A stretch of DNA of 64,000 nt. It comes from a virus. Where the stretch lies: IMG/VR virus record IMGVR_UViG_3300007735_000793, positions 1 through 64,000 of that record. The stretch is one strand, 5' to 3'. This document shows, piece after piece, positions 34,008-64,000 of the stretch. The translations under genes were made by a program, and so were the position numbers. Every line of letters begins with the position of its first letter. The stretch's first letter is position 1. The notes beneath the pieces are model-generated. The model saw only the letters and a list, made by a program, of their open reading frames with translations, ran no database searches and was not told the origin of the DNA.

Positions 34008-35582
34008 TCAAAGTGTTTTCAATTCCATATCTTCGGTCAAATCTTTAGCCTGAACATATCCTATACCATCTACATACATTCTATGATTTGGGGTTACTTG
34101 AATGGTTTTACCATCTTCCATTTCGATTTCTAACCACTCATCAGTATCATCGTTATTAAAATATGCTATAACATCCATAAATTCACTATTTCCAGTTTCT
34201 TCATTAAATGATAATACCGAATCGGTAAGTTTATTATCTACAAACTCTGATATGGGTATATTTCCATTATTTTTAGTTTGTATAACACTATCACCCGCTA
34301 TGCACTTTTCTCGAGTTAATTCCAAATCACCTTTTAAGGCCTTTGCTATTATGTTTTTTAAATCACCAAAAGTTAAACCCAACTCTAAATCAAACGGATG
34401 ATTCATATGACCGTATGCCCCGCCTTCTGTCAAATAATCGTTGAACTTTCTACCAATTCTTTCTAATAACTTATATTGCTTTCTATCTATTACTTCTAAT
34501 TTTTTTCCAATCACCCATTCAACAACCTCATATCCTAACCCCCTAAATACTTCCTGCAACTCCTTGTCCTCTACACCAGTAATATCAACCTCTACTTCGG
34601 GTGGAGCTTCAGGTGGTGCAACATCCAATGGAGTAGTAGCAATATCAGCAGTTACATAATCTTCCGTTTCGGGTATATCTAAAAGGTCATCCATTGTGAA
34701 TACCTTTCTTCTACTTGCATATTGATAAAAATCACCCGTACCTTTTGCCGATTTTTTAACCATCGCATCTGCTTTTGGAAACTCTATTTGTGTATATCCA
34801 CCACTAACAAACCAATAATCGTTTTTTTGCGCATCTTTACCCAAACCCAATACTCGTTTTTTACCTGGCGGAACATAAATTGCATCAGGCTCACCTGGAT
34901 CTGCACCATATCCACCTCCCAATGATGATTCAATAAGGGGAATTAAATTATACTTACTGAAGAAGTCTGATATAATTTCGTTTACTCCACCCAGCTTTTG
35001 GGTTATCATATTGTATATTTTTGGATTAAATTTTGGATATGCTTTTTTAAATCCCCCTTTTCTTTGTGATTCATCTCCCGCTGATAACCATTTTCTTACA
35101 TCCGTTCCACTTATTGGATTTGGTTGAGCAGGTGATGTATAAACATAACCACTTTCTTCATATCCACTTACAGGTTTAAATCCGGCACCACTATGAAATT
35201 TTTTGAAATATTTACCACCTAATCGTTGTGCATCTTTTTCCCCTACCACAGTTACAAATGCCGTTGTTTGAGGTGAAAATCCACTTAATATTTCAATTGG
35301 ATTATATGGGTTTTTTACCTGCACTACCTTATTCTTTGGAATATTAAACATTGTAGTCATTATTGTTTTTTTCTCCAAAAAATTAAAGGGGTCTTTAGGT
35401 CCACCACTTTTGTTGGATGTCCCAATCCAAACGGCATCCTTACCAAACTTTTGAACTAAATGTGAATAGGTAGCATAATGCCCCTTATGGAAAGGTTGAA
35501 ACCTACCCGCATATACCACCACTATATCTTTGACTTCTTCGGTTAATATCTCTTTAACCCATTCTTTTATTAAATTTCCCAT
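34008..35582 (-). CDS. Cytidylyltransferase-like / ligase-like fusion, N-terminal half with N-intein
   Basis: 524 residues. Residues about 20-190 are an NMN-adenylyltransferase/cytidylyltransferase-type domain: VVVYAGRFQPFHKGHY (HxGH) and the late motif ISGTDVRKWLSAGD. A linker and a Pro-rich stretch (APPEAPPEVEVD) follow. Then TEGGAYGHMNHPFDLELGLT and LKGDLELTREK lead up to the ligase motif I lysine (Lys426). Residues 427-524 are the N-intein. Splicing with the 33995 product restores K|TDG and gives a ~785-residue two-domain enzyme. The start has a promoter-like octamer 3 bases upstream and no obvious ribosome site. Confidence 0.87.
   Translation of the reverse strand: MGNLIKEWVKEILTEEVKDIVVVYAGRFQPFHKGHYATYSHLVQKFGKDAVWIGTSNKSGGPKDPFNFLEKKTIMTTMFNIPKNKVVQVKNPYNPIEILSGFSPQTTAFVTVVGEKDAQRLGGKYFKKFHSGAGFKPVSGYEESGYVYTSPAQPNPISGTDVRKWLSAGDESQRKGGFKKAYPKFNPKIYNMITQKLGGVNEIISDFFSKYNLIPLIESSLGGGYGADPGEPDAIYVPPGKKRVLGLGKDAQKNDYWFVSGGYTQIEFPKADAMVKKSAKGTGDFYQYASRRKVFTMDDLLDIPETEDYVTADIATTPLDVAPPEAPPEVEVDITGVEDKELQEVFRGLGYEVVEWVIGKKLEVIDRKQYKLLERIGRKFNDYLTEGGAYGHMNHPFDLELGLTFGDLKNIIAKALKGDLELTREKCIAGDSVIQTKNNGNIPISEFVDNKLTDSVLSFNEETGNSEFMDVIAYFNNDDTDEWLEIEMEDGKTIQVTPNHRMYVDGIGYVQAKDLTEDMELKTL
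34011..34304 (-). other. N-intein (98 residues) of canonical split intein
   Basis: Block A CIAGDSVIQTKNNGNIP begins at Cys427. Block B is GKTIQVTPNHRMYVDGIGYV with the TxxH motif, and the fragment ends DLTEDMELKTL. No endonuclease domain is present. Confidence 0.92.
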
Positions 35583-41118: not shown

Positions 41119-44100
41119 TTATAAAACAATTGAATATGCTATCATTAAAGAAAGTGCGTTGTTAGGTAATACACTACCCACTGTCGCACTTGCATATCCA
41201 GCTCTTGCCGTTGAAAATGTTATAACTGATTGATTATCTGATGTTCCTTGAATTGAATCAGGAACCACCACTTGATAACTATTATCGTATACTGTTATTA
41301 CAGGTGTTCTAAAATTAAGGTTATGATTAAAAGTCCAAGTGGTTGAAGCAACTGATTGTGTAAATGTTGCAAAGTTTTGACCGGAAAATGATGATGCGGT
41401 TAATGCGAGTGTAGCTGTTTGTGCGTTTTCTGCCCAACTTGCCGTTCCATAGAGTGAGCCTGTTATTGAACCACTTACACTTAAAGAACCTGTAATTTGT
41501 ATTTCCGAACCTGAAGCAAATAGTAAATTACTTCTATTACTATCATCAATACCATTACCTATTATAAAAGCAGATTGATCTGGTAATGATATATTATATT
41601 GACCTATTGTTAATTGATAGTCGCCTTGTGCTATTGTTCCTAATCCCTCTGCATGGGAAGCTATTCCTAATGCTAGTGTTCCTGATCCCTCTGCATGTGA
41701 ATACGCCCCAGATGCTATTGTTGAAATCCCTTCGGCATGAGAGCTATAGCCGGAAGATAAAGTACTAGATCCTTCAGCATGAGATGTAGCTCCCGATGAT
41801 ATAGAACTTGCACCTTCGGCGTGTGAATAGTTACCAGATGCTACAGTTTCTGTTCCTTCGGCATGAGAAGCTTCACCGGTGGTCAATGTATCTACACCCT
41901 CGGCATGCGAATAATTACCTGTTGCAGTTGTTGCTTGTCCTTGTACAACTGTCCCTGCTACATCTAATGTTGCTTTTGGAGTAGTTGTTCCAATACCTAC
42001 ATTACTGCCCGTAATTGTTAATTGTGTGGTATCTGCAGTTTGTAAAAATAATGAGCCTGAACCTCTTGCATTTATACTTAAATTTTGGTTATTTGATGTT
42101 CTGATTTCATTAAAGTTGGGTGTTGAATCATATAATGTTCCTATAATAGCCCCACCAATATTAAGTGTAACGGCACCACTACCATCTGATAAAAAGCTTA
42201 AATTAGTGCCACCACCATTTTTAAATATTGTAGCTAATCTAACAGAACCATTTACATCTAATTCTCTTTGTGGTGTTGCAGTTCCAACACCTACTCTACC
42301 ACTACCAGATACAAATAAAGCCGAAGGTGCGGTGGATGAAGAAGCTATTAATAATGCTTCATTATTAGCTCCCGATATATGAAGTCTTGCATTTGGTGAT
42401 GTGGTGTTTATACCAATAAGACCCGATGTATTGTTTATTTGAAATCTTACCGTACTATATGATACATCTTCAATTGTAAAGTTAGAATTAGGAACAACAC
42501 CCATTCTCCAACTATAACTGCTACCTCTATTAAATCTAATTGCACTTCCCTGCGATGCATCCCCCGTCAAATACACTAACTCATTTGTAGCGGATGTTCC
42601 ACTTATATGTAATCTTACAGATGGTGTTGTAGTGCCGATACCAACATTACCACTACTACTAATGGTCATTCTTACAGAACCACTTGTTTCTAATTGTAAA
42701 TCTTGAGTATCGTTAGTGCCTAAAAGTGCCGTAGCCCCAAATGAGTTGCCACCTTGCACAAATGCGTTAGTGCCTGTTGGGGCTATGAATGAAGATGTTA
42801 GTGCGTTTTGAGCCCAAGATGATGTTCCAAATAGTGAACCTGTTATTGAACCATTTACCCTTAATGAGCCTGTAAAGATATGGGTATCATCGGATGAATT
42901 ACCAAATTGAGTTGAGCCTGATTGGTATATTATACTCGCAGATACAAACTCCGTATGAAACTCTTCTGCGGTTATTCTACCAGTTACTAACAAATTACCA
43001 TCTACATGCAACCTTTCAGTTGGTGTTGTAGTGCCTATACCTACATTGCCTGAACTGGATATGAATACTCGTGTAGTATTGTTAGTTTCTAATTGTAGAT
43101 TACTCGCATTAATTGTTCCAATTGTTAGCGGACTACCAACTGCTCCCGTATTATTACCATCATTTAGGATTACTGCATTAGAACCATAAAACAACCTATT
43201 AGATGAGTTTGTCCATAAGTGAGTTGAACTTGGTGCAGTTGTTTGAGATGAATTATTAAAATCAATACCCTTATAATTTAATAAGGTTCTACCCCTCAAT
43301 TGTCCCAAACTGTCATAAGTTTCTGCTATGTAAGAAGCGCTGGTATGAGTAATTCCGCCAAAATCACCATCTATTGTTATAATATTTTTGCTTTGTGTAA
43401 CAGGTCCCCAAAAATTAGTTTTTCCGTAAACTTGAAACCCATCAATAGTGGTTGTGCTTGTAGGCGATGGTGCAGTATCAATTTTTATACCCCTACTAAT
43501 TGCACCAATCCCACCATATACTTCAAATATGTTTTTTCTATTTGCAGACGAAGGACCTGTTCCATCACCCACCACAAATATATTGTTAAAATCAGTCATT
43601 GCTTCATTGTAATGACCTACTACCAATTGACCCGATGATGATGCGATAGTTCCAATACCAAATGCTACTGTCGCAGTTCCTCTTGCCCACGAACCCGAAC
43701 CGGCTGCAAAAGAACCCGAACCATCTGCATCAGTTTCAATACCCACACTAAATGCAGCATATCCACTTGCGGTCGTATTTACACCAGCAGCATGAGCAGC
43801 AAATCCGGAGGCAAGTGTTCCCACACCTTCTGCAAATGAAGCAGTTCCGGTTGTAGTATTATTAAACCCAAAAACGGAAGAGCTTGGAGCATTTACTGCG
43901 GGGTTTATACCCGATAATATTGAATTTACACCTAATTGGTCAGATACCCTTGTCAGATTAGCCGCCAATGTGGGCATCCTAATATCAAAGTTTTGGAAAA
44001 CATCACCACTACCACTTGCGAACTCATTATACCAATCTTCATCAGTATCCAATGTAAATGAACCAGTAGACATACCACTTGCGGTTATGCTTAATATAAG

Positions 44101-44349
44101 TGTACCGTTGTTTACTGTCCAATTAGAACCGGTATTAAAAAATCCTACATTTAATTTTTTATCTTTTTGTAAAAATGATACGGTAGTAGAAATCCCCGCA
44201 TTAACATCTTTTACTATAACCCCACCAGGAACATTAAACTTAAGGGAAACTGCGCCAATATTTACAGATGAAGTATTGCTTAATACACTAATGGTGTAGT
44301 TATCAAGTGTTGTGTTTAATGAGCCTGAATTTGTTAGTGTTACTGCCAT
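41119..44349 (-). CDS. Large tail fibre with N-terminal cohesin-like domain and YadA-like repeats
   Basis: 1076 residues. Residues 1-130 form a beta-sandwich with a cohesin-type pattern: SVNIGAVSLKFNVPGGVIV, then LNVGFFNTGSNWTVNNGTL, SITASGMSTGSFTL and EFASGSGDVFQNFDIRMP. YadA-like repeats lie near 165-260, GIGTTTPT units and the ITAEEFHTEFVSASIIYQSG block are central, and a second YadA-like run of SHAEG units (YSHAEGASSISSGATSHAEG) occupies about 790-900. The C-terminal ~110 residues are a beta domain. Homologous to the 794-residue fibre over the first ~150 residues. Confidence 0.8.
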   Translation of the reverse strand: MAVTLTNSGSLNTTLDNYTISVLSNTSSVNIGAVSLKFNVPGGVIVKDVNAGISTTVSFLQKDKKLNVGFFNTGSNWTVNNGTLILSITASGMSTGSFTLDTDEDWYNEFASGSGDVFQNFDIRMPTLAANLTRVSDQLGVNSILSGINPAVNAPSSSVFGFNNTTTGTASFAEGVGTLASGFAAHAAGVNTTASGYAAFSVGIETDADGSGSFAAGSGSWARGTATVAFGIGTIASSSGQLVVGHYNEAMTDFNNIFVVGDGTGPSSANRKNIFEVYGGIGAISRGIKIDTAPSPTSTTTIDGFQVYGKTNFWGPVTQSKNIITIDGDFGGITHTSASYIAETYDSLGQLRGRTLLNYKGIDFNNSSQTTAPSSTHLWTNSSNRLFYGSNAVILNDGNNTGAVGSPLTIGTINASNLQLETNNTTRVFISSSGNVGIGTTTPTERLHVDGNLLVTGRITAEEFHTEFVSASIIYQSGSTQFGNSSDDTHIFTGSLRVNGSITGSLFGTSSWAQNALTSSFIAPTGTNAFVQGGNSFGATALLGTNDTQDLQLETSGSVRMTISSSGNVGIGTTTPSVRLHISGTSATNELVYLTGDASQGSAIRFNRGSSYSWRMGVVPNSNFTIEDVSYSTVRFQINNTSGLIGINTTSPNARLHISGANNEALLIASSSTAPSALFVSGSGRVGVGTATPQRELDVNGSVRLATIFKNGGGTNLSFLSDGSGAVTLNIGGAIIGTLYDSTPNFNEIRTSNNQNLSINARGSGSLFLQTADTTQLTITGSNVGIGTTTPKATLDVAGTVVQGQATTATGNYSHAEGVDTLTTGEASHAEGTETVASGNYSHAEGASSISSGATSHAEGSSTLSSGYSSHAEGISTIASGAYSHAEGSGTLALGIASHAEGLGTIAQGDYQLTIGQYNISLPDQSAFIIGNGIDDSNRSNLLFASGSEIQITGSLSVSGSITGSLYGTASWAENAQTATLALTASSFSGQNFATFTQSVASTTWTFNHNLNFRTPVITVYDNSYQVVVPDSIQGTSDNQSVITFSTARAGYASATVGSVLPNNALSLMIAYSIVL

Positions 44350-44410
44350 TTTTTTATTTTATTTCACCCACATTTAGTATAAATATACCCATTATAAATT
44401 AACATTTGGG
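44350..44410. repeat. 61-bp perfect intergenic repeat, copy 1
   Basis: Identical to 46066-46126 and 52085-52145. It contains the end of a dockerin-type gene, a promoter octamer and the leader of the next gene. Confidence 0.93.
44378..44385 (-). promoter_or_regulatory. Candidate phage promoter element TATTTATA
   Basis: 28 bases before the 1076-residue fibre ATG, inside the 61-bp repeat. Confidence 0.5.
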
Positions 44411-45162
44411 ATGTAACTTCCGTCTACATCACCCAAACATAATGCCAAATATTGTAAGTTTGTGTTATTAGCTGAAGCAGTTAGTGGTATACCCATAGAT
44501 GATACTGCACCATTTAATGATGATGTAACACCATTTTGTGTCGCAGTACTATCCAAAGCAGTAGCATTTATCCCATACCAACCTCTAAAATTTGCACCGG
44601 AACCTGAACCAAATACCCAATTACCTCTATAATTAGATACACCCGATGTTGATGATTGCAGAAATGCAGTGTCAATTAAATCGATATCAAGAAGATCTAT
44701 GATATCATCACCATTTACATCTGCTGCCAATTGTCTAATACCAGTTAATACATTTCCCACAGCGGCGTGTTGAGATATACGTGACTCATCGACCATGTTT
44801 ACTCCACCCCAAGGTTTACTCGTTTCAAATTGAACATAATAGTTTCCAATAGGAACTGGTCCAAAGTTAAAATCACCAGTAGTTGCGTTTGTATCAACTG
44901 ATGTAAGTTGAGTACCACTTTCATCGAATAATGTCACCCTAGTATTTGTCATTGGTGTTAGGGCGGTATTATCATACCTAACAGTACCAGATTGTTGTAC
45001 ATATACCCTATTATCTAAACTTGATGTAAAATATGTTATTACACCACTTGCGGTGTTATACATCAAAACATGGTTTTTATAAAGGTTGGGTAAGTTACTT
45101 GCAGTTATGTTTAAAACATGCGCAGAACTACCTGATACAATAACCTTTTTCCATGATGGCAT
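44392..45162 (-). CDS. Dockerin-type fibre accessory protein 1
   Basis: 256 residues from MPSWKKVIVSGSSAHVLN. An ATG at 45192 adds ten residues not shared by the paralogues. Order: N-terminal tag and short shaft (res. 1-60), a carboxypeptidase-regulatory-like Ig domain (VRYDNTALTPMTNTRVTLF ... KPWGGVNMVD), a dockerin-like Ca loop LAADVNGDDIIDLLD with Asp, Asn, Asp and Asp at coordinating spacing, and a shared C-terminal beta domain (GNWVFGSGSGANFRGW ... GDVDGSYIPNVNL). The domain set is typical of Bacteroidota surface proteins. It is one of three tandem paralogues. Confidence 0.8.
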   Translation of the reverse strand: MPSWKKVIVSGSSAHVLNITASNLPNLYKNHVLMYNTASGVITYFTSSLDNRVYVQQSGTVRYDNTALTPMTNTRVTLFDESGTQLTSVDTNATTGDFNFGPVPIGNYYVQFETSKPWGGVNMVDESRISQHAAVGNVLTGIRQLAADVNGDDIIDLLDIDLIDTAFLQSSTSGVSNYRGNWVFGSGSGANFRGWYGINATALDSTATQNGVTSSLNGAVSSMGIPLTASANNTNLQYLALCLGDVDGSYIPNVNL

Positions 45163-45290
45163 ATAACACTCACTAATTTTTAAATCATACAATATGGTTG
45201 GTTACACATACTAAGTGAGTAGTATATGAGCCCACTTCCTTATTCAGGCCAATATTGTAGTTTTTTGGTTAATTTATACTCAATATATAG

Positions 45291-45298
45291 TATAAATA
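45291..45298 (-). promoter_or_regulatory. Candidate phage promoter element TATTTATA
   Basis: Within the 142-base gap between dockerin-type genes 2 and 1, 128 bases before the 45162 start. The rest of that gap is A/T-rich leader with a weak AAGTGGG...CTCACTT stem and no gene. Confidence 0.4.
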
Positions 45299-45334
45299 TA
45301 GAAAAAAAATAATAAATGTTTATTTCCTCAAAAG

Positions 45335-46051
45335 TTATTGAGGGGTGTAACTTCCGTTTACATCACCCAAACATAATGCCAAATATTGTAAGTTTGTGTT
45401 ATTAGCTGAAGCAGTTAGTGGTATACCCATAGATGATACCACGCCTAAACTTGGTGAAACGGCTTGAATCGATACCATTCGCCAACCTCTAAAATTTGCA
45501 CCGGAGCCTGAGCCAAATACCCAATTACCTGCGGGGAATGAAAGGATTGAATTATTTATTCTATTATTAACCGAACTATAATCGTCATTATCTATATCAC
45601 CATCACCATCTACATCTGCTGCTAATTTTCTGATGTTGGTTAGTGGGTTACCATTAATATGTGCTTCTATTAGACTAGCATCATTTGTATTTACTCCACC
45701 CCAAGGTTTACTCGTTTCAAATTGAACATAATAGTTTCCAACAGGAACTTGTCCAAAGTTAAAATTACCATTGGAATCTGTAATAACTAATCTAAATTGA
45801 GTACCATTACTTTTTAATAATTTCACAGTAGTATTTGTCATTGATGTTTGTGCAGTATTATCATACTTAACACTACCAGATTGTTGTACATATACCCTAT
45901 TATCTAAACTTGATGAAAAATATGTTATTACACCACTTGCCGTATCATACATCAATACATTATTTTTGTAAATATTGGGTAAGTTACTTGCAGTTATGTT
46001 TAGTAAGTGAGCTGCACTACCTGATAATATTACTTTTTTCCATGATGGCAT
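45335..46051 (-). CDS. Dockerin-type fibre accessory protein 2
   Basis: 238 residues: MPSWKKVILSGSAAHLLNIT tag, Ig-like domain (VKYDNTAQTSMTNTTVKLL ... KPWGGVNTND), dockerin-like loop LAADVDGDGDIDNDDYSSV, the most canonical Ca-binding sequence of the four, and the common C-terminal domain ending CLGDVNGSYTPQ. The region between tag and Ig domain is nearly identical to its neighbours. The segment after the Ca loop differs (INNSILSFPAGNW). It lacks the PNVNL end of its paralogues. Confidence 0.82.
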   Translation of the reverse strand: MPSWKKVILSGSAAHLLNITASNLPNIYKNNVLMYDTASGVITYFSSSLDNRVYVQQSGSVKYDNTAQTSMTNTTVKLLKSNGTQFRLVITDSNGNFNFGQVPVGNYYVQFETSKPWGGVNTNDASLIEAHINGNPLTNIRKLAADVDGDGDIDNDDYSSVNNRINNSILSFPAGNWVFGSGSGANFRGWRMVSIQAVSPSLGVVSSMGIPLTASANNTNLQYLALCLGDVNGSYTPQ

Positions 46052-46065
46052 ATAATAGTTATTAT

Positions 46066-46126
46066 TTTTTTATTTTATTTCACCCACATTTAGTATAAAT
46101 ATACCCATTATAAATTAACATTTGGG
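46066..46126. repeat. 61-bp perfect intergenic repeat, copy 2
   Basis: Second copy of the unit at 44350-44410. Here it precedes dockerin-type gene 2 and overlaps the end of gene 3. Confidence 0.93.
46094..46101 (-). promoter_or_regulatory. Candidate phage promoter element TATTTATA
   Basis: 42 bases before the 46051 start, inside the 61-bp repeat. Confidence 0.45.
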
Positions 46127-46830
46127 GTGTAACTCCCATTTACATCACCAACTGAAAGTGCCCAATATTGCAAGTATATGTTATCAGCTGAAGCAGTTAG
46201 TGGTATACCAATTGAAGATACTGCCCTATATAATGAGGATGTTTGTCCATTCATAAACCAACCTCTAAAATTTGCACCGGAACCTGAACCAAACACCCAA
46301 TCACCTGCGATGAATGATGAACGCAGGAGTCCGAAACGTTGGTTGGCTTGGAGTGCATCGGTAGTGGTTATAGTATTACTTGCATTTATATCTGCTGCCA
46401 ATTGTCTGATACCAGTTAATAGTTGAGTGTTGCTGAAGTGTCTTGAAATAAGTAATGCATCAGTTGCGGTTACACCACCCCAAGGTTTACTCGTTTGAAA
46501 TCGAACATAATAGTTTCCAACAGGAACTGGTCCAAAGTTAAAATTACCCATCGCGTTTGTAATAACTGATCTAACTTGAGTACCACTTTCATCGAATAAT
46601 TTAACAGTAGTATTTGTCATTGGTGTTAGGCCGGTATTATCATACCTAACAGTACCAGATTGTTGTACATATACCCTATTATCTAAACTTGATGTAAAAT
46701 ATGTTACTGCACCACTTGCCGTATCATAGATTAAAATCGCCTGTTCAAAAGTATTAGATAAATTACTTGCGGTGATGTTTAATACTGATAACGCACTACC
46801 TGATGATATTACTTTTTTCCATGAGGGCAT
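46108..46830 (-). CDS. Dockerin-type fibre accessory protein 3
   Basis: 240 residues. MPSWKKVISSGSALSVLNIT tag, Ig-like domain (VRYDNTGLTPMTNTTVKLF), first F-hand helix KPWGGVTATDALLISRHF, second loop LAADINASNTITTTDALQAN, then GDWVFGSGSGANFRGW and the ending DVNGSYTPNVNL. The second loop has Ser at a usual Asp position, so calcium binding may be weaker. The pair of helices with TDALL motifs is the clearest dockerin type I signature in the window. Confidence 0.83.
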   Translation of the reverse strand: MPSWKKVISSGSALSVLNITASNLSNTFEQAILIYDTASGAVTYFTSSLDNRVYVQQSGTVRYDNTGLTPMTNTTVKLFDESGTQVRSVITNAMGNFNFGPVPVGNYYVRFQTSKPWGGVTATDALLISRHFSNTQLLTGIRQLAADINASNTITTTDALQANQRFGLLRSSFIAGDWVFGSGSGANFRGWFMNGQTSSLYRAVSSIGIPLTASADNIYLQYWALSVGDVNGSYTPNVNL

Positions 46831-46888
46831 ATAACACTTATTATATAATTACTACTTTATAAGTATATTTTTTTAATAATATTAGTGT

Positions 46889-47113
46889 TTATTTCTCCCC
46901 ATTTAAATCAATATACTGTGATTGGAGTTTGATAATGGTATTATATACCAATTCAACATCACCTACCTTAAAAGTTAAATCTTTTATTGATGTCAGTAAA
47001 AAGGTTATTTCTTCTACATTTAGATTACTTTCATTTAGGGTTGTAGTTTTAACCAATTCTTCCGCCGGAGTTCCAGTAGATGATTTCATTCTTATTTTAT
47101 TTAATAATGACAT
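46889..47113 (-). CDS. Small helical protein in fibre cluster
   Basis: 74 residues: SLLNKIRMKSSTGTPAEEL, then LNVEEITFLLTSIKDLTFK and VELVYNTIIKLQSQYIDLNG. It is amphipathic and helical, possibly a chaperone or adaptor for neighbouring fibres. Short proteins of this kind recur in T4-type fibre clusters, but I cannot name it. Confidence 0.6.
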   Translation of the reverse strand: MSLLNKIRMKSSTGTPAEELVKTTTLNESNLNVEEITFLLTSIKDLTFKVGDVELVYNTIIKLQSQYIDLNGEK

Positions 47114-47155
47114 TTTTTATAACCTTTCATTTTAAATGAGTAATTTTAGTTTTTA

Positions 47156-48931
47156 TTACCCCGCATACACTATATTATCTTGATTATCTGCTAAGTCTGG
47201 ACTCCAAAACCAAATATCACCATTATTCTGAATATACATATTACCAAATCCAAGAAGTTGACCACCAAATTCAGGTGCAGCTGTTGGAACTAAACTTGAT
47301 CTTGTTACGGAAACCAAATAATCAGTTGGGTTTAGTGTAGTTTGAGTGTGCCCTACACTATTGTTCAATCCCCATCTCGCACTAAAAGTTTGATTATTTG
47401 GGGAGGTAACCTCCACTTTTGAATTTAAGAAAAGTGCCGAACCTGTCGGTGAACCACCACTACCCGTTGTATACTGAACGATAATACCACCATCCGTATG
47501 AGTTGCAGAACCTGATATAGAGCCTGAAGCAAGTAGGATAAATCTATCTTCTACCATTACATCTGTAACATTCAATATTGTAGTATTTCCGTTTACTGTC
47601 AGGTCACCACCAACTACAACATTTCCCGTTGTGGTTATACTAGCAGCATTTACAACTCCTGCTGTTGTCGCAGTGAAGCCTGTGGATACTGCAAATGTCG
47701 TACCATTAAAAGTTAAATCATTTTCACCATTTAAAGAATTCCCATCAGTAAATGTTGCGATTCTGTTATCAGCACCATTTGTAGCATCTACTAAACTGGT
47801 GCCGAATACACGGCTATCAATGGCTCGAGTAAACACCTGCCCACTCGAACCCGTAACTAAAACTGCGAGCTCCGATGAACCTACTGGTAAATTTAATATA
47901 TTTACTCTACCCGCGTTTATTGATGCAGTGTCTGCTGCAGCATTTCCTAATGTAGTATTACCTTCTACTGATAAATCACCACCAATAGTTCCATTACCAC
48001 TTGTTGTTAGTATTGCACCTATTAACCCGGCAGAAGAACTTATGTTACCCGATGCTGTCAAGTTTGTGGTTGCAATACCACTACCAGCAACTTGAAGGGT
48101 GTTTGTTGGAGTTCCTGTTCCTATACCCACATTACCACTACCACTTACAACAAACGCATTTGGAGAACCGAGTGAAGATGCCCTTAATATAATGGTGGGG
48201 TTAGTACCAACAACAGATAAAAAAGCATCTGGAGTTGTAGTATTTATACCTACTCTACCACTACCCGATACAAATAGAAAGGCCTGGCTAGCATCTGGTG
48301 CGCCCACTTGTAATAGTGATTGATTAGTGGTGCCAACTACATGTAGTAAAGCGGTTGGTGTAGTAACACCTATACCTACCCTACCCGATGAGTTTATTCG
48401 CATTCTTTCTTGTGCCAAAGAACCACTTTGTGCAGTACCGAATGCAAGGAAAGTATCGGGACTAGCATCTTCAGAAACTGCTTCTATAAAAGCTCTTACT
48501 AATTGTGAATTATTAGAACCAGAGGTATCAGTATCAGATGATTCAAATGCTATTCTACCTATTGATTGAGTTACATCAGATGTTGTATCGGTATCTCTAA
48601 AAGTTATGGTGTTTAGTGATGCGGTTGTACCACCATTTGTACTATACTGCCTACCATTATTATCATTAGCTAATATAACTGAATTTAAATTACCAGTAAA
48701 TGTTCCTGCAAAAGAACCAGTAAAAGAACCCGTTAATATTGAATTAGTACCAGTTGAATTTATATTGGCACCGCCAATTGCTAAAGTAGTTCCGTTATAA
48801 GTTAATCCACTATTTTCAATTTGACCGACATTACCCGCGATAAGTAAATTATCATTTGTTAATACTGATGATGTTATTCCGGATAAGTGGGCTTGTGAAC
48901 CGGATACTATAACCTTTTTCCATGATGGCAT
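47156..48931 (-). CDS. Tail fibre protein with MPSWKKV tag and GIGT-TP repeats
   Basis: 591 residues. It begins MPSWKKVIVSGSQAHLSGIT, the tag shared with the three dockerin-type proteins. The shaft has several VGIGVTTPTALLHVVG units. From about 340 a different beta-helical region follows (NTTILNVTDVMVEDRFILL). The end is a compact domain FGNMYIQNNGDIWFWSPDLA. The shared tag implies attachment at the same virion site as the dockerin-type proteins. A promoter octamer pair lies upstream at 48972 and 49001. Confidence 0.82.
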   Translation of the reverse strand: MPSWKKVIVSGSQAHLSGITSSVLTNDNLLIAGNVGQIENSGLTYNGTTLAIGGANINSTGTNSILTGSFTGSFAGTFTGNLNSVILANDNNGRQYSTNGGTTASLNTITFRDTDTTSDVTQSIGRIAFESSDTDTSGSNNSQLVRAFIEAVSEDASPDTFLAFGTAQSGSLAQERMRINSSGRVGIGVTTPTALLHVVGTTNQSLLQVGAPDASQAFLFVSGSGRVGINTTTPDAFLSVVGTNPTIILRASSLGSPNAFVVSGSGNVGIGTGTPTNTLQVAGSGIATTNLTASGNISSSAGLIGAILTTSGNGTIGGDLSVEGNTTLGNAAADTASINAGRVNILNLPVGSSELAVLVTGSSGQVFTRAIDSRVFGTSLVDATNGADNRIATFTDGNSLNGENDLTFNGTTFAVSTGFTATTAGVVNAASITTTGNVVVGGDLTVNGNTTILNVTDVMVEDRFILLASGSISGSATHTDGGIIVQYTTGSGGSPTGSALFLNSKVEVTSPNNQTFSARWGLNNSVGHTQTTLNPTDYLVSVTRSSLVPTAAPEFGGQLLGFGNMYIQNNGDIWFWSPDLADNQDNIVYAG

Positions 48932-48971
48932 AAATGAACTCCCTTATGATTTTTGACTTTATTCTACCTTA

Positions 48972-48979
48972 TATAAATA
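48972..48979 (-). promoter_or_regulatory. Candidate phage promoter element TATTTATA
   Basis: 40 bases before the 48931 start. A second TATTTATA lies at 49001-49008 in the same 125-base gap, which otherwise holds only A/T-rich leader. Confidence 0.45.
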
Positions 48980-49056
48980 GTTGTATATTTTATTTTCCCT
49001 TATAAATAAGTAGTGTTTATTTTTTTTAATGTTACTAATAATTAGTAATTATTTTT

Positions 49057-49701
49057 TTATTCATATCCCAAATAAAAGTTACCATCCGCACTATAATACA
49101 TCCCCCCAGTTACCGGAGTTGGTGGGGTATCAAACTTACCTAAAACCATAACACCCTCTGAATTGATTTGTGCTGCAAGGAAACTACCTGATTTGATAAT
49201 AAAGAAATCAGGCATTTCCGATGATATCTTTGTTTGGATTTGATTTGATTGATTATATATTACTACACTTGATGTGTTTATTCTTACATTTCCTAATTGA
49301 ATATATTCATCTCCCCCAAAAACCTCAGCAGTTGTTACACCATTATCATCCACAAAACTCAAACTTCTGCTTACATAAACATCACTCCAAGCAGCAGTAG
49401 AGCTACCTAATGAGTGTGGGGATGTATTACCCGAAGAAACATGGGGAATTAAAGAACCTGAAAAATTAGCAGAACCTGAAAACGAACTTCTACCAATTAT
49501 CAGTAAATCACCTAAAAGATTAACCGAACCCGTTGTGGTTGTATTGGTGGTAACAGCTGCTTCAATTGATTGACCAGCACTACCTGATTTTTTTAAGAAT
49601 ATTTTACCATCGGCAGTATTTACAGCTAACTCACCCAGCTCTAATGAGGATGTGGTTGGTACATTTCCACTTGTAAGATTTCTTCTAAGTAAAATTGACA
49701 T
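49057..49701 (-). CDS. Fibre-related protein with tropism-determinant-like N terminus
   Basis: 214 residues. The N terminus SSLELGELAVNTADGKIFLK is a motif found at the start of many phage fibre and tropism-determinant proteins. A strand-rich body follows (HSLGSSTAAWSDVYVSRSL), then a C-terminal domain ending GGMYYSADGNFYLGYE. Its ATG overlaps the stop of the 794-residue fibre by one base. It probably forms a short spike or a tip for that fibre. Confidence 0.72.
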   Translation of the reverse strand: MSILLRRNLTSGNVPTTSSLELGELAVNTADGKIFLKKSGSAGQSIEAAVTTNTTTTGSVNLLGDLLIIGRSSFSGSANFSGSLIPHVSSGNTSPHSLGSSTAAWSDVYVSRSLSFVDDNGVTTAEVFGGDEYIQLGNVRINTSSVVIYNQSNQIQTKISSEMPDFFIIKSGSFLAAQINSEGVMVLGKFDTPPTPVTGGMYYSADGNFYLGYE

Positions 49702-52085
49702 TAATAAAATCCCCCATCAACATTTAATGCAAAGGATGCGGTTATAGAATACGAACTACTTATAGGTGTTCCATTTTCCCATACACCTTCATTATATATC
49801 AACGCCTGCCCATCTGTGGCGGATGTAATGGTTACATTTGTTAAATCATCCAAAGTAGTTACAGCGCTTCCACCACCACCAGCAGCACCACCACCTCTAA
49901 ATAATCCAGCAGGAATTATTTTATTATCAGTAGTGTTGGTTATATCGTTTGTATTACTTTTTAGTACTAAAAACCCTAAAAAGGTTGTAAAATCAAAAGT
50001 ATCACCTTCGGAAAATGAATCGGTTGATAAATTTGCTATTGCGTTTTGATAATCAGGATATATATTCCGGCCATAATAGATATACAACACACCTGTTCTT
50101 GGGTCGGAATACACCCGTTGTATTGTCCAATCATTGTTATTGACTGAACTGGTTGTACCTGTACCTGGATCATAAAATCCAGGTTTTAGTGATGTGTAAA
50201 AAGTATCATTATTCGTATCAAACCTAATTCCAGAACCTGAACTATAAACATATGCTATACTTGCTGTTTCCTGTGCGTTTGTGTTATATTGTGAGGGGAA
50301 TTGTAAATTACTGTCATAAAACCCACCGTGAATATAAGATACACCCGAACCAACAGATAATCTTAAACTTGAAGATTGTCCCGTTAATCCATATCCCGAT
50401 AATTTTAATGGACCGAAAGCATCTATAAAGTTTACTATTTGAGCGGTTTGGTTATACGCGGTCTGAACTGCTCCACCAAAAGCAGAAATACTACTATAAT
50501 TAAAATGCGCCACTGCCCCTAATGGGATATCATCGTGGAATTGCTGTGAGGTAAATCTTGTTGATTGTTGTTGCAATTCCCCATCTTCATCAATGTAGAT
50601 GTATGTTACCTGCTGCGTTGCAATATTTGTTATACTTTGTGTTATAGGTCCCCAAGTTACATAATCTACAATAGGGCCTACTTCAGAATTTGCGGTTACA
50701 TTGTGATTTACAATAATACCACTACCAGGAGAAACAAACACATTACTACCACTATAAGTTACTATACCACCATAAAGTAACCCAGTTTCCAACATCCCCT
50801 CAAACCATTTCCACTTTACTACATTACCATTTTGTCTAAAATATAAATCATTCCCCAAAAGAGTATTGGATGAACTTTGAAATAAAATGGTTGAATTGGA
50901 ATCTAATCCCGATGGATCCGGGTCTTGTGTTGGCTCAAACTTTATACTACCATCAAATACACTATTACCCTTTACTAATAGTGAGCCTGTAAATATGTGG
51001 GTATCATCGGATGAATTACCAAATTGGGTTGAACCACTTTGATAAATGATACTTGCAGACACAAATTCGGTGTGAAACTCTTCTGCGGTTATGCGGCCTG
51101 TTACTAATAGGTTTCCATTTACATGAAGTTTTTCGGTTGGTGCTCCAGTTCCTATACCTACAAACCCAGTAGAACCCGCAATTCTCATTATTTCAGGTTG
51201 GGTAACTGCGCCTGCGTAAAATGATATATCATTTGTTCCAAATAAGCCACCAAGCTCTGATAGCATATAAGCTCCAGTATGTCCGAAACTTGAACTTGCT
51301 ACGGATATATTATTAGTATTATATCTAATATATGGAGTAAACTGTCCTGCGATTAATCCACCTTGTGTGGAAGAGGTTACTGAAGTTACAGTTATACCTC
51401 CGTTTACTTGAAGGGTATTTGTTGGTGTTGTAGTTCCAATACCCACATTACCACTACTACTAATGGTCATTCTCACCGAACCACTTGTCTCTAATCGTAG
51501 GTTTTGATTATCATTTGTTCCGATGGTCATTTCACTACCTAAAGTGTTACCATCGTTTAATATTAATGCGCTAGAACTATAAAACAACCGATTGGATGAG
51601 TTTGTCCATAAGTGAGTTGAACTTGGTGCAGTTGTTTGAGATGAACTATTAAATAATATTGAGTTTAAGCCTAATTGGTCTGATACTCGCGCTATGTCAG
51701 TTACCAACACCGGCATTTTAATATCAAAGTTTTCGAAAACATCGCCACTACCACTTGCGAACTCATTATACGAATCTTCATCAGTATCTAATGTAAATGA
51801 GCCGGTGGACATACCACTTGCGGTTATACTTAATATTGTGTTATTTGTATTTACTGTCCAATTTGAAGTTGTATATAGAGCAATATATAAGTTTTTATCT
51901 TTTTGTAAAAATGATACAGTAGCAGAAATTCCTGCATTAACATCTTTTACTATAACCCCACCAGGAACATTAAACTTAAGATTAACTGCACCAAGATTTA
52001 CAGACGATGTATTACTTAATACACTAATACCATAATTATCAAGTGTTGTGTTTAATGAGCCTGAATTTGTTAGTGTTACTGCCAT
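49701..52085 (-). CDS. Tail fibre with N-terminal cohesin-like domain and long C-terminal tip
   Basis: 794 residues. Residues 1-130 are the same cohesin-like sandwich as in the 1076-residue fibre (SVNLGAVNLKFNVPGGVIV, ITASGMSTGSFTL, EFASGSGDVFENFDIKMP). A short shaft with GIGTTTPT units and the block GRITAEEFHTEFVSASIIYQ follow. From about 400 the sequence is unlike the other fibres: a ~390-residue beta-rich tip (GSGIIVNHNVTANSEVGPIV, DWTIQRVYSDPRTGVLYIYY). The two fibres thus share base and shaft but carry different tips. Confidence 0.8.
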   Translation of the reverse strand: MAVTLTNSGSLNTTLDNYGISVLSNTSSVNLGAVNLKFNVPGGVIVKDVNAGISATVSFLQKDKNLYIALYTTSNWTVNTNNTILSITASGMSTGSFTLDTDEDSYNEFASGSGDVFENFDIKMPVLVTDIARVSDQLGLNSILFNSSSQTTAPSSTHLWTNSSNRLFYSSSALILNDGNTLGSEMTIGTNDNQNLRLETSGSVRMTISSSGNVGIGTTTPTNTLQVNGGITVTSVTSSTQGGLIAGQFTPYIRYNTNNISVASSSFGHTGAYMLSELGGLFGTNDISFYAGAVTQPEIMRIAGSTGFVGIGTGAPTEKLHVNGNLLVTGRITAEEFHTEFVSASIIYQSGSTQFGNSSDDTHIFTGSLLVKGNSVFDGSIKFEPTQDPDPSGLDSNSTILFQSSSNTLLGNDLYFRQNGNVVKWKWFEGMLETGLLYGGIVTYSGSNVFVSPGSGIIVNHNVTANSEVGPIVDYVTWGPITQSITNIATQQVTYIYIDEDGELQQQSTRFTSQQFHDDIPLGAVAHFNYSSISAFGGAVQTAYNQTAQIVNFIDAFGPLKLSGYGLTGQSSSLRLSVGSGVSYIHGGFYDSNLQFPSQYNTNAQETASIAYVYSSGSGIRFDTNNDTFYTSLKPGFYDPGTGTTSSVNNNDWTIQRVYSDPRTGVLYIYYGRNIYPDYQNAIANLSTDSFSEGDTFDFTTFLGFLVLKSNTNDITNTTDNKIIPAGLFRGGGAAGGGGSAVTTLDDLTNVTITSATDGQALIYNEGVWENGTPISSSYSITASFALNVDGGFY

Positions 52086-52145
52086 TTTTTATTTTATTTC
52101 ACCCACATTTAGTATAAATATACCCATTATAAATTAACATTTGGG
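52085..52145. repeat. 61-bp perfect intergenic repeat, copy 3
   Basis: Third copy of the unit at 44350-44410, here between the 651-residue dockerin-type fibre and the 794-residue cohesin-like fibre. Confidence 0.93.
52113..52120 (-). promoter_or_regulatory. Candidate phage promoter element TATTTATA
   Basis: 27 bases before the 52085 start, inside the 61-bp repeat. Confidence 0.5.
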
Positions 52146-54082
52146 ATGTAACTCCCATTTACATCGCCAACTGAAAGTGCAAAGTATGGTAAGTTAATAT
52201 TACCACGAGATGCCGTTAGTGGTATACCAATTGAAGATACTGCCCAATTTGATGGAGATGTTTGTCCATTCATAAACCAACCTCTGAAGGTTGTATCAGT
52301 TGCCGTTGTCCCAAACACCCAATTACCTGCGGTGAATGAAGAACGATTGAAAGTGATTCTTTGCACAATTTGAAGTGGATCGGTGGCGTTTATAGTATTA
52401 CTTGCATTTATATCTGCTGCCAATCTTCTGATACCAGTTAATAGTTGAGTGTTGCTGAAGTGTCTTGCAATATTTAACGCGTCAGCTGCGGTTACTCCAC
52501 GCCAAGGTTTATTCGTATAAAAATCGATATAATAACTTCCCGTTGGAATATTACCACCAAAGTTAAAATCACCAGTCGCGTTTGTAGTAACTGATGCAAT
52601 TGTTTGATAACTACCCACATTTATAGTATCTTCGCGTAATAATCTCACAGTAGTATTTGTCATTGGTGTTTGGCCGGTATTATCATACCTAACAGTACCA
52701 CTTATAGATGCAGTTTCTATTATTGCTGGTGAGATAGGTGGATTACATCCATTAGGGTCATAAAGTGTTATATTATAATTTTGGTTCAATGCGCTTGATG
52801 GGGATGGACTATATTGTGAACATACATATACTATATCGTTAGAACCACCACTAGATGCCCAAGTTTGTGGATTACCATTACAATTGGTATATGTGTATGT
52901 ATCATGCGCACCACGATCTTCTATCAGCCAAGTTACACATAGAGGTGGTAAATTGGAGTATGTAACCTCACCACTTTGGGTATTATACATTAGGTAAAAC
53001 TCTTGCAATTGATTACGTGATTCGGTTAGATATAGTGAACCCGTTATTTCAAAATGTGAGCCGGATGTATATACCAAATTTTTTTGAGAACCCAAACTAC
53101 CTCTACCTATTATAAAAGAACCAGGTGTTTCCATCGGTAAGTTAAATTGACCAATTACACTTTGATAATCTCCTTGTGCTATTGTTGTATTTCCGGCGGC
53201 ATGTGAATAATTACCTGATGCGGATGTGAAATATCCTTCGGCATGAGAATAAGAGCCCGATGCGATTGTTTGGTTTCCTTCGGCATGAGAATAATTACCA
53301 TATGCAGTTGTTCTATCTCCTTCAGCATGAGAAGAAAAACCTAATGCGATTGTTCGGTCTCCTTCAGCATGAGAAATTTGACCAAGTGCTTTTGTTTGTT
53401 GTCCTTCTGTATGAGAAGCATAACCGGATGCGGTTGTAAGATATCCTTCGGCATGAGAACCTTCGTTTGTGGCGGTTGTAAGTAGTCCTTCGGCATGAGA
53501 ATATTGGCCTGATGCGGTTGTGTATTGTCCTTCAGCATGAGAATAAGAGCCTGATGCCAATGTGTACTCTCCTTGTGCATGTGAACCAGTACCTACTGCC
53601 ATTAACCCCAAACCACCCTGCTGAAAACTACCTAATAAATCAAGTTTTGCTGTTGGTGTACTCAACCCAATACCAACTCTTTGAGTTTGATAATTATATA
53701 CAAAATCCGCAGAACCACTAAATTTGCTAGCGCTATTAAATTGAACTGCCATATCGGGTGGTGCTGCACCAGTTGCTGCACCAGTTCCACCTAAAAAATC
53801 TCCCAACTCAACCCAGTCATTAACAGTGTTGGTTCTTTGATTTGGTAAGAACGCAGAACCTGTGTTTATGTATACATAATATTTACTTACATCTTGTTGA
53901 TAACACAATAAACCTTCAAAGCACAAACTATAATCTATAGCAAGTCTGTTACTTTGAGATAGTGCCAACATTCTAAAATCTAATGCCCACGACGGGTTAG
54001 TTAATGGGGAATAGTATGAACCTCCACTCGGAGTTTGTTGAAACTGATTTGGGTTGTTTGGGCTTATTTGTATTTGAGACAT
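52127..54082 (-). CDS. YadA-like tail fibre with C-terminal dockerin-type domain
   Basis: 651 residues. The N-terminal ~110 are an attachment region (NPSWALDFRMLALSQSNRL). At about 165-310 lie eleven or more 14-residue units of the YadA head type, SHAEGxxTxASGxY, predicted to form a trimeric left-handed beta-roll. Then come an Ig-like part (VRYDNTGQTPMTNTTVRLL), dockerin-type helices (RGVTAADALNIARHF, LAADINASNTINATDPLQ) and the shared C-terminal domain ending VGDVNGSYIPNVNL. It joins a fibre shaft and a dockerin in one chain, unlike the three short paralogues. Confidence 0.83.
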   Translation of the reverse strand: MSQIQISPNNPNQFQQTPSGGSYYSPLTNPSWALDFRMLALSQSNRLAIDYSLCFEGLLCYQQDVSKYYVYINTGSAFLPNQRTNTVNDWVELGDFLGGTGAATGAAPPDMAVQFNSASKFSGSADFVYNYQTQRVGIGLSTPTAKLDLLGSFQQGGLGLMAVGTGSHAQGEYTLASGSYSHAEGQYTTASGQYSHAEGLLTTATNEGSHAEGYLTTASGYASHTEGQQTKALGQISHAEGDRTIALGFSSHAEGDRTTAYGNYSHAEGNQTIASGSYSHAEGYFTSASGNYSHAAGNTTIAQGDYQSVIGQFNLPMETPGSFIIGRGSLGSQKNLVYTSGSHFEITGSLYLTESRNQLQEFYLMYNTQSGEVTYSNLPPLCVTWLIEDRGAHDTYTYTNCNGNPQTWASSGGSNDIVYVCSQYSPSPSSALNQNYNITLYDPNGCNPPISPAIIETASISGTVRYDNTGQTPMTNTTVRLLREDTINVGSYQTIASVTTNATGDFNFGGNIPTGSYYIDFYTNKPWRGVTAADALNIARHFSNTQLLTGIRRLAADINASNTINATDPLQIVQRITFNRSSFTAGNWVFGTTATDTTFRGWFMNGQTSPSNWAVSSIGIPLTASRGNINLPYFALSVGDVNGSYIPNVNL

Positions 54083-54096
54083 AAAATATTACCTTA

Positions 54097-57000
54097 TTAA
54101 GAAAATTTTAAATAATAATTAAAATACATACCCGTTTGATTAGATAGTTGTGCTTGCGTATCTTGAAAAATATAATATTTAAACGGAGAAACTACACCAG
54201 CATAACCAGGAACTGTCCAAGCATTTTTATTGGGTGTACCGCCCGATTGCCAAGAGTTATCAAGATTAATATTTTCATTTACTATTATGTACAACCATTT
54301 TGAACCATCGCCACTAAAATCTGGCCAAAAAACTCGTAAATTATTACTATGTGTATTATTAGGATATGGTGTTATTCCAGAAAAGTAATATTTTTGATTA
54401 TTAACTATTCCCAAAGTAGGGTCGCTTTGATTATGTGTATAAACAATTTTACCCCGATTACTATTTGGAGTAGATGCATATCCAGGATCTTCATTTCCCG
54501 CACCACTATATGTCCAATTAACTAAATTATAAAAAATAGAACCCGTTATATCAGGATGCCCACCAAGTCTAATATCCCATCTTTTCACATCTAATAATGA
54601 TTGTTCTGTAAAATATAGAGTTATAGCATTAGTTACATTACCGGTAGCTGCAGGTAAAACCCCCCATCGTAAACTTATAGTTTTATTTATATTTACGGTT
54701 TCAGTAAAATCATTACAAATTTTGGGTGGTTGATTCAAATTAAAGTATGGTACTCCAGTTGAATTTGCGGAAGAAGTATATGATGAACTTATTAAAATTT
54801 TAAGATAAGAACGATTTGTAGATGTTGCACGAGGGAAGGTTGGATTATAAGGATAGGTTGTATCAATTGGTATATTCAAACTACTGGTCTGAGTATTACC
54901 TAATGAACCACTATATAAACCCGTTAAGTTTAAAAGATATCTATATTCATTTCCTGCAATGGTATTAAAATTACGTTGAAGGTTTTGTGTAGTAATGTTA
55001 TCTTTACGGTATTGTTGTGTCCATGGAGATAAATTTCTAAATTGATAACCAGTTGTGTTAGTAGGCCACTCTGATTGGTTTGTATTATATATAGATGCTG
55101 TAACTCCAATACTACCAGACAATCCTAATTCAACTGCCATATATCTAATGTCACCACCCAATTCGGACGGCGGTGTTCCAAGTTGAAAGTTTGTATTATA
55201 ATTTACAAATGTAGCGGGATTAAATGTAGCGGGATTTGGACACGGTCTTTCACTAACATTCAAAGTGAGTACCGATGAACACCTAGCCCAAGTAGTACTA
55301 TCAAACCGGGATTCAGATAGGGATGCGGTCACCTGTAAGGTGTGTGTTACCGAACCAAATGATTGGGTTGGTAATGTGTGAATTGATAAAAGTGAGTTAA
55401 ATAATGTATTTAAATAGTTTACACTACCAGTTTCCCATATCTTTGAACTTCCCGAAAAAAGTGATGCAGATATCAAAGTTATATTTGTGGGATTGGTACA
55501 AGGACTTTGCCATGGGTTGTTTGTTCTTCTAAATTTTGCCACTAAATTATAATCATCCAATTCTCTATTATGGCGCGTTGGTAAAAAACCAGTTTGGGTT
55601 AATTCACACGCAATTGCTAAATTAGCAGGTGGAGTTATTGTAAACGGTGTAGGACCACATTCCAAAGTTCTCCATGCAGTCGGATTAGTAACTTCCGATG
55701 TATAACTGGCAGTAACTATAAACCTATAAGTAACATTTCCAATTGATGATGTTGAAATTGTCCATGTTATTGGTAACGAAGAATACGATTGATTATCTAT
55801 AGACCATATTTGCGAACTTCCTGAAAATAGTGATGCCGAAATTACAGTTATAGATGGAATTGGTGATGGTGCTGATGATAAACTAAACCCAAATGTTAAA
55901 TTGTAATCATCACTTTCGTTTGGAAATCTGCATCGATTAAATGAATTATTATCTGTTATTGGTTGACAAATAATATTAAAATCAGGTGGAGTAGAACTTA
56001 CTTCAGCCGATGCAGTGCCATATGTAAACACCCCACTTTGAGAATTATATAAAATAACCCAAGGTTGTTGCACCTTTGGTAATCGCGCAATTACCCCACC
56101 CTCAATGTGTATTTTTTGCTGTGGATTAGAAGTACCAATACCAACATCTCCTGAGTTTTTTATCACAAATGGGTTATCACTCACCTGCGGCCATAAAACC
56201 GACTGTGAGCCTATAAAAGTACCAATAGATGAACTTATGAAGAAAGCATCTCTATCACGATTTCTAAAATCAAAAAATCCAGAATAAGAGGATGTATAAG
56301 GAGCCAATGAGGGTGTTTCGATAATGATAATCTTATCAGAGTTTACTAATTGTCCTGTTGTAGTTGCTCCCGGCGTACCACCAACTCTATATTTTGAAAA
56401 ACTACCTCCAATTATAGATGCAGAATCACTTAATTTTATAGATGTGAAAATGGAATTATCACCTGCTTGTGTGGGGGATGGGAATAATGAACGAATATAA
56501 TCATTACTCAACCCACCATTAAAATCCATAACCACTAAATTTTTAGCAGGAGGTGTAAAAGAAATGCTTGTTCCTGCTGTAAACGAGCCACCTACTAATA
56601 ATTTCGCTGAAGTATTTCCAATAAAATGAATTGTTCTAATTGAATTATTGGGTCTATCTTTAATTAAATCCCAAAAATCACCACTCTGATTCCAATCAGT
56701 ACGAATTGAACCATTTCCGGGATTTAAACTTGTCATTTTATATTCAACCGAACCCGAATATTTAGTAAAGTTACCACCAATATACAGGTATTCATCCGGC
56801 GCAATGTACGGGTTGTAGATAGTGTATACTGCCGAACCCGATGTTCCACCACTTATAGAACTACTTTGATTGAATGTAGTAATTACACTACCATTATTAT
56901 TTATTTTTAATATCCCGCCGTTACCATACTGATAATCAGATGAGCCTGAATAAGATGTAAATGTTCCACCAACATAAAGGTGTAAATTGGGGTTGTAACC

Positions 57001-63673: not shown

Positions 63674-63701
63674 AATACCCAACATACAAAATAAAAGTGA
63701 A

Positions 63702-64000
63702 TTATCCAAACAAAAATGTTTTGGGTTCTTCTGATACCCATTCCAATGGTATCTCTTTTGCAGCCCACTTAAATCCATTTTTATCGGCCCACATTCCATA
63801 TGTAGTTTTTGAGTTTTTTGCTAATTTTGCGTTGGGGTTCTGAAACACAAATCTAATATCTAATTCCGGTTTTTGATTTTGTATCAATAAATGCTTTTTT
63901 CTGTCTGATAAAGTAAACCTACCCTTTGTTTCTATGAAAATACCATTAGGTAATCTAAAATCAGGCTTATATGTGTGATTGGTCGCAGGCTTGGTATATC
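63702..64000 (-). CDS. Endonuclease I / Holliday-junction nuclease-like protein, 5' end outside window
   Basis: The frame is open to the right edge. About 98 C-terminal codons are visible, reading from YTKPATNHTYKPDFRLPNG. PDFRLPNGIFIETKGRF is a PD-(D/E)xK core (Asp, then Glu-x-Lys), as in T7 endonuclease I (TPDFLLNNGIFVEVKG). It continues SDRKKHLLIQNQKPELDIRF and ends LEWVSEEPKTFLFG. Such enzymes cleave branched DNA and may resolve recombination intermediates before packaging. They are common in T4-type aquatic phages. Confidence 0.85.
   Translation of the reverse strand, partial: YTKPATNHTYKPDFRLPNGIFIETKGRFTLSDRKKHLLIQNQKPELDIRFVFQNPNAKLAKNSKTTYGMWADKNGFKWAAKEIPLEWVSEEPKTFLFG

Follow-up and report, generated by a model that had tools for sequence, protein, structure and literature searches.

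A viral stretch of 64,000 nucleotides (nt), positions 1 to 64,000 of record IMGVR_UViG_3300007735_000793 and called the window here, carries a tail-fibre gene cluster in which two kinds of protein module recur: X-Doc, an immunoglobulin-like (Ig-like) part (X) followed by a dockerin-type module, and Coh, an N-terminal sandwich of about 130 residues with a predicted cohesin fold. The entire record has 97,066 bases and may be a fragment. Every Coh gene found in this and two related phages directly follows an X-Doc gene, in the order in which bacterial surface proteins carry both modules within one chain. We propose, with a confidence that falls just short of even, that a captured adhesin unit was split between neighbouring genes and now joins fibre segments via predicted Coh-Doc binding. 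Somewhat more tentatively, both halves of each pair would have become phage-encoded when a host module was split at its linker, forming an exchangeable, calcium-dependent tail-fibre joint of which at least two pairs would have drifted to different partners.

Results

Coh genes directly follow X-Doc genes

Proteins are referred to by the first coordinate of their gene, and the Cohs of 41119 and 49701 as P0001 and P0002. In the window, the X-Doc and Coh genes of the two pairs are separated by 42 nt (44392 to 44349) and 41 nt (52127 to 52085). A scan of viral contigs with phage and host X-Docs found three more contigs, two of which show no difference across the 17,581 nt compared (one of them being L057), so that two are distinct (L057 and L058). 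In each, a fibre with a C-terminal X-Doc is followed by a gene that opens with a Coh, the gaps being 34 and 33 nt. The arrangement thus holds for all four phage Coh genes, from three distinct phages. The phage Cohs all begin at residue 1 of a fibre and the phage X-Docs are all C-terminal, with two Cohs and four X-Docs in the window record and one of each in the two other distinct phage records. As read, the Coh fibres possess no N-terminal part besides Coh, at the position normally occupied by the virion-attachment part of a fibre. An earlier note on this DNA had placed the modules on separate proteins; this is so, but they are not scattered, since each Coh fibre gene comes immediately after an X-Doc gene.

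A Coh scan of the viral contigs with profile A8 returned the same three contigs and none carrying Coh alone; the re-finding of two of them is by construction, because A8 includes their Cohs. Neither the viral contig scans with P0001, P0004, A1 and A2, among which those with the window Cohs alone found nothing, nor a genome contig scan with A1 gave a useful match.

The Coh module has a predicted cohesin fold

Over their first 130 residues, 41119 and 49701 share 84% identity. Pfam Cohesin (PF00963) matched none of the P0001, P0002, L057 and L058 modules, nor any other part of the two window fibres, and a phmmer search of the Protein Data Bank (PDB) with P0001 returned nothing sensible (best 0.37, superoxide dismutase). 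P0001, the only phage Coh modelled as an isolated domain, was assessed by structure with AlphaFold, using an alignment of host relatives as input (predicted local distance difference test score, pLDDT, 94; predicted template modelling score, pTM, 0.87). In a Foldseek search with this model ranks 1-23 were all cohesins or cohesin-like modules (best 2xdh, 1.4e-5). VIA returned 50 structures with Z 7.5-11.4, of which 47 are titled as cohesin, Coh or cohesin complex, while the remaining three (3kcp, 4fl4, 2o4e) are titled as cellulosome or scaffoldin complex or interaction module. Both searches place the model among the cohesins rather than outside that fold, and on the fold results a chance resemblance was rejected. 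On the predicted structure the N-terminal sandwich is a cohesin fold, as the earlier note had supposed for both fibres, even though Pfam Cohesin does not recognise it.

Because there is no direct Pfam match and the family is reached via host relatives only, we describe Coh as a cohesin-fold relative. Profile A4 was built from 16 host modules that follow a dockerin, with no phage row and without six N-terminal host cohesins (A5). Against the PDB it found the Archaeoglobus cohesin 2xdh first (7e-6; the next match, 0.32, was unrelated), and it recovered host stretches that Pfam Cohesin likewise matches; profile A3 also reached 2xdh (2.2e-8). In single hhalign comparisons the phage Coh matched the host post-dockerin modules at 97.2% (E 3.7e-11) and the host N-terminal cohesins at 52.4% (E 1.4e-4); by sequence, it is nearer to the former. 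A profile of both window Cohs (A1) was searched against 198 genomes from the host-like phylum; G003, around which this sample was centred, was included by choice. The best match (E 1.1e-8) lay directly behind an X-Doc in a G003 protein. Matches at E up to 0.1 occurred in 13 of the 198 genomes and at E up to 0.001 in two, the second of which (G120) was set aside for four stops in its frame.

The X-Doc proteins keep one predicted calcium loop

Proteins 52127, 46108, 45335 and 44392 share a C-terminal unit consisting of the Ig-like X part, the dockerin, an extra segment and a GDVNGSY tail; the extra segment is absent from the aligned host relatives. Pfam Dockerin_1 (PF00404) matched exactly four places in the 97,066-base record, namely these four proteins (E 1.2e-9 to 3.0e-5), three of them passing the cut-off in the record search and two when scored on whole proteins. 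The X part that precedes each match resembles SdrD_B or CarboxypepD_reg, and in two of the four proteins this likeness exceeds the cut-off. The Ig-like and dockerin-type modules that the earlier note had assigned to these proteins are thus recovered by profile.

The calcium loops named in that note fared unevenly. A canonical type I dockerin has two F-hand loops, each with calcium ligands. All six phage dockerins carry oxygen-bearing residues in the second loop, at positions 1, 3, 5 and 12 (D at all four in 45335; D, N, S and D in 52127), whereas the first loop is degenerate in all six, its positions 1, 3 and 5 being T/S, K/R and W. Because only the second loop keeps ligand-type residues, the phage module is a one-loop dockerin relative and not a canonical type I dockerin, and a calcium dependence resting on that single loop is plausible.

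Host-type relatives carry both modules in one chain

A search with the X-Doc alignment picked out five loci, spread over four metagenome-assembled genomes, which by their names we take to be freshwater and which are titled Bacteroidetes (two), Sphingomonadales and uncultured bacterium. The four genomes contain 25, 20, 23 and 6 X-Doc matches and 48, 10, 13 and 18 Pfam Cohesin matches (E up to 0.01). In many cases X-Doc and then Coh follow each other within one protein: counting X-Doc matches of at least 200 nt in the four genomes, 40 of 69 have a Coh match at most 250 nt behind. Conversely, among the best 45 of 78 host Coh matches, 40 follow one of these 69 X-Docs; of the five left, two lie behind an X-Doc fragment that was too short to count among the 69. 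Four of the five host X-Doc/Coh proteins scanned terminate in a type IX secretion system (T9SS) type A sorting domain, with none listed for the fifth (L055). The closest host X-Docs share 65% and 70% identity with the phage X-Doc over the part present, both being cut by contig ends. These relatives point to a Bacteroidota host.

Three of the host-like genomes, 2.0-2.2 megabases in size and with 20-25 X-Doc matches each, look cellulosome-like. The contig titled Sphingomonadales (L006) closely resembles the Bacteroidetes locus L007 in gene order and proteins, and its title or bin may be wrong. At about 4100-9270 of L006 and L007 lies a protein with cohesins (three by reading) and a dockerin, which in L006 adjoins a protein matching alpha-amylase plus dockerin.

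The abundance of both modules in these genomes also bears on the main rival explanation, in which phage X-Docs would dock into host surface cohesins, or phage Cohs into host X-Docs, with the host's assembly code acting as receptor. We regard host docking as rather unlikely but keep it as a live alternative, particularly for the two X-Doc proteins that lack a Coh neighbour, because the host-like genomes hold so many X-Docs and cohesins; one of them (G001; C10, C15) has two open frames of 5737 and 5272 amino acids with 17 and 15 cohesin matches. The identity of the closest host X-Docs to the phage module fits such docking, as does the position of the phage dockerins at fibre ends, where receptor-binding parts usually sit. 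Docking leaves unexplained that both halves are kept side by side, in host order and with Coh always at the fibre N-terminus, and the bacteria in question are putative hosts only. Moreover, the six phage X-Docs group together in a tree and not among different host dockerins, with weak support (76/77; bootstrap not settled).

Dockerins and Cohs vary unevenly

Among the small proteins 44392, 45335 and 46108, the dockerins are 37-45% identical, compared with 67-82% for the X part, 71-83% for the tail and 74-88% for the N-terminal part. Between 52127 and both 44392 and 45335 the corresponding values are 33-39% (dockerin), 54-66% (X part) and 63-68% (tail). For 44392 and 45335, tail DNA is 98% identical over 98 nt beside dockerins of 45% identity. 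This pattern fits dockerin exchange between genes, fast dockerin change, or both, and lends some support to the term 'exchangeable' used in the earlier note, as the small-gene dockerins vary far more than their flanks. In the X part nonsynonymous differences slightly exceed synonymous ones in all six pairs; the sites are few and we give this no weight. Diversity driven by a reverse transcriptase was rejected as a source, there being no RVT_1 match in the record, itself possibly a fragment.

The two window Cohs also differ unevenly. P0001 and P0002 show 12 differences in their densest 20-residue window (residues 65-84; permutation p 0.0001), a patch that lies around model strand 65-71, and at the DNA level there are 23 differences in 20 codons (64-84), compared with 17 in each flank (63 and 46 codons). 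According to a Coh-Doc structure report, strands 8-3-6-5 form the dockerin-binding face and loop 6-7 lies near helix 1 (PMC5429695). By a manual count of strands in the model, the variable patch would correspond to strand 6 and the following loops.

A proposed fibre joint and the points against it

The mechanism that we propose begins with a phage, apparently T4-like and of Bacteroidota, taking a C-terminal X-Doc plus Coh unit from a host surface protein. The captured unit would then have been divided between two neighbouring fibre genes, such that the upstream fibre or short adaptor retains the X-Doc at its far (C-terminal) end and the downstream fibre opens with the Coh. The Coh would grip the helices of the dockerin, whose second loop would probably hold calcium, thereby joining the two segments end to end, and the variable dockerins together with the changed Coh patch would set which segments fit. 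A clip of this kind between fibre segments is suggested by the presence of Coh at a fibre start and X-Doc at a fibre end, adjacent and in host order. Protein 52127 carries YadA_head repeats, a trimeric fold, so the joint could be 3:3, provided that both fibres are trimeric.

An X-Doc and a Coh were also modelled as a single chain with a read-through linker (AlphaFold; pLDDT 80.9, pTM 0.53). The individual domains are good and the dockerin stretch has three helices; in a Foldseek search the model matched cohesins, pilins and Ig-like folds, with no dockerin chain among the 50 matches listed.

Several observations weigh against the proposed joint or give it no support. The tethered model, neutral as to binding itself, gives no fixed placement of one domain on the other; the earlier idea of adhesins assembled or placed by Coh-Doc binding draws on gene order, module position and host architecture. 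X-Doc proteins 45335 and 46108 are without a Coh neighbour, and the genes may lie side by side in three related phages simply through inheritance of the cluster. In the host-type genomes 29 of the 69 X-Docs have no Coh match behind them, and a host Coh that follows an X-Doc need not be the binding partner of that X-Doc. The dockerins of 46108 and 52127 are 75% identical, above their X part at 66% (tail 74%). Because DNA differences concentrate in codons 64-84, the Coh patch could be a swapped segment. Finally, the L057 and L058 Cohs are 97% identical and the dockerins just 59%, which does not look like tight co-variation.

Some of these points count equally for another explanation, that the modules are structural spacers only, stable folds from host adhesins whose Coh-Doc pairing has been lost. 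The lack of a fixed contact in the tethered model and the near-identical L057 and L058 Cohs beside diverged dockerins agree with it, as do the degenerate calcium loop, the failure of Pfam Cohesin to recognise any of the four phage modules and the fact that Ig-like and other sandwich folds are common parts of phage fibres. We nevertheless consider it unlikely. A spacer role does not need a split with adjacent halves at all four Coh genes; the small-gene dockerin varies far more than the adjoining X part, as expected of a recognition surface; and the oxygen-bearing residues of the second loop are kept in all six dockerins.

Phage identity and distribution

The major head protein shares 56.8% identity with its counterpart in Microcystis phage Mel-JY01 and 53.8% with those of Flavobacterium phages of the immuto group. 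It also matches a PHROG that comprises major head proteins and capsids from many Escherichia and Synechococcus phages, and the phage has matches to portal and terminase families. From the likeness of its head protein we assume the phage to be T4-like. That the modules are a feature of many sequenced phages was rejected: a tblastn search of 50,697 phage records with P0001, P0003, P0004 and the L057 Coh yielded either no match or noise at E 4-6. Nor did P0005 match any of 72,556 plasmid records.

Features of the fibre cluster

All named fibre-cluster genes lie on the minus strand, at the coordinates that the earlier note had given. For 44392, whose frame is open from a TTG at 45192, the ATG at 45162 (MPSWKK..) is the more likely start. 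Protein 46108 consists of an MPSWKK N-terminal part, the Ig-like X, the dockerin, an insert and the GDVNGSY tail.

Table 1. Fibre and module features of the window, in the direction of the genes
Feature	Position	Strand	Match or score
Fibre protein 52127, 651 amino acids, YadA_head repeats, C-terminal X-Doc; pair 1 upstream half	52127..54082	-	YadA_head 4.3e-12
X-Doc of 52127	52130-52708	-	
Dockerin match of 52127	52355..52495	-	26.6 bits, over cut-off (record search); 21.2 bits, under cut-off (whole protein)
Pair 1 gap, X-Doc stop to Coh start, 41 nt, contains TATATTTATACTA	52086..52126	-	
Fibre 49701, 794 amino acids, Coh at start; pair 1 downstream half	49701..52085	-	
Coh of 49701 (P0002)	51696..52085	-	
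Small X-Doc protein 46108, 240 amino acids; Coh gene not adjoining	46108..46830	-	
Small X-Doc protein 45335, 238 amino acids, second loop DVDGDGDIDNDD; Coh gene not adjoining	45335..46051	-	
Small X-Doc protein 44392, 256 amino acids counted from ATG; pair 2 upstream half	44392..45162	-	Dockerin 21.4 bits (cut-off 22.9)
Pair 2 gap, X-Doc stop to Coh start, 42 nt, in frame, further stops, contains TATATTTATACTA	44350..44391	-	
Fibre 41119, 1076 amino acids, Coh at start; pair 2 downstream half	41119..44349	-	
Coh of 41119 (P0001)	43960..44349	-	AlphaFold pLDDT 94, pTM 0.87; predicted cohesin fold

The motif TATATTTATACTA occurs in the gaps around X-Doc genes at 44375-44387, 45288-45300, 46091-46103 and 52110-52122. 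All four matches are exact, the expected number being 0.72 when one mismatch is allowed, and 2 of 100 shuffles also reach four; the motif may act as a promoter-like box or be a trace of cassette copying. Elsewhere in the window, 54097-58995 encodes a 1632-residue protein with DUF5122 propeller repeats (E 9.8e-16), 63059-63799 a Mom-like DNA modification protein (E 1.9e-46), and 34008-35582 a 524-residue protein whose start matches a cytidyltransferase family and whose end matches a PHROG named DNA helicase.

Discussion

If the proposed joint is correct, viral use of the cohesin-dockerin clip would extend it beyond bacteria and archaea, offer a simple route for a phage to swap fibre tips and provide new protein joints for engineering. 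The pairs described here would also be a direct test case for phages making fibre parts from host surface modules by splitting them. Were host docking correct instead, a phage would be using its host's assembly code as receptor.

In agreement with the earlier note, which knew of no such case, no phage cohesin-dockerin system was found in the open-access literature searched. Two phage proteins come near on the dockerin side: Gp02 of coliphage vB_EcoS_HSE2, a tailspike-like protein with structural likeness to PDB 2wz8, and gene 40 of vibriophage VvAW1, which lies at a possible attachment site and drew a BLASTP remark on dockerin likeness; the passages concerned name no cohesin partner for either (PMC5967307, PMC3558961). 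Non-cellulosomal cohesins and dockerins are described for bacteria and archaea in a further report (PMC9012536). The best solved relative of the phage module by profile and by Foldseek, 2xdh, is such a cohesin from Archaeoglobus fulgidus; it is archaeal and shares 11% (Foldseek) or 14% (VIA) identity with the phage module.

Long tail fibres of T4-like phages consist of several proteins joined end to end non-covalently. Their joints are built from phage-specific parts, and we know of no cohesin or dockerin in them. Cellulosomes of Clostridia and Ruminococcus are assembled through cohesin and dockerin modules on separate proteins. The phage differs in having one Coh per fibre, with two Cohs on two proteins in the 97,066-base record and no multi-cohesin scaffold; likewise, no carbohydrate-active enzyme family was listed for the nine fibre-cluster proteins of this possibly fragmentary record. 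The combination that makes a cellulosome, a multi-cohesin scaffoldin with dockerin-bearing enzymes, is thus absent from the record as it stands.

Bacteroidota-type surface proteins with X-Doc and Coh (e.g. L016/L040) are like the phage in the two modules and in their order; at the point where the phage X-Doc ends in ..GDVDGSYIPNVNL, the host chain has ..GDVNGSGIPNVNLRES.. and continues into Coh. They differ in that the host has one chain where the phage has two genes, in that the phage proteins are without the T9SS sorting tail, and in lacking the extra segment that follows the dockerin in the window X-Docs.

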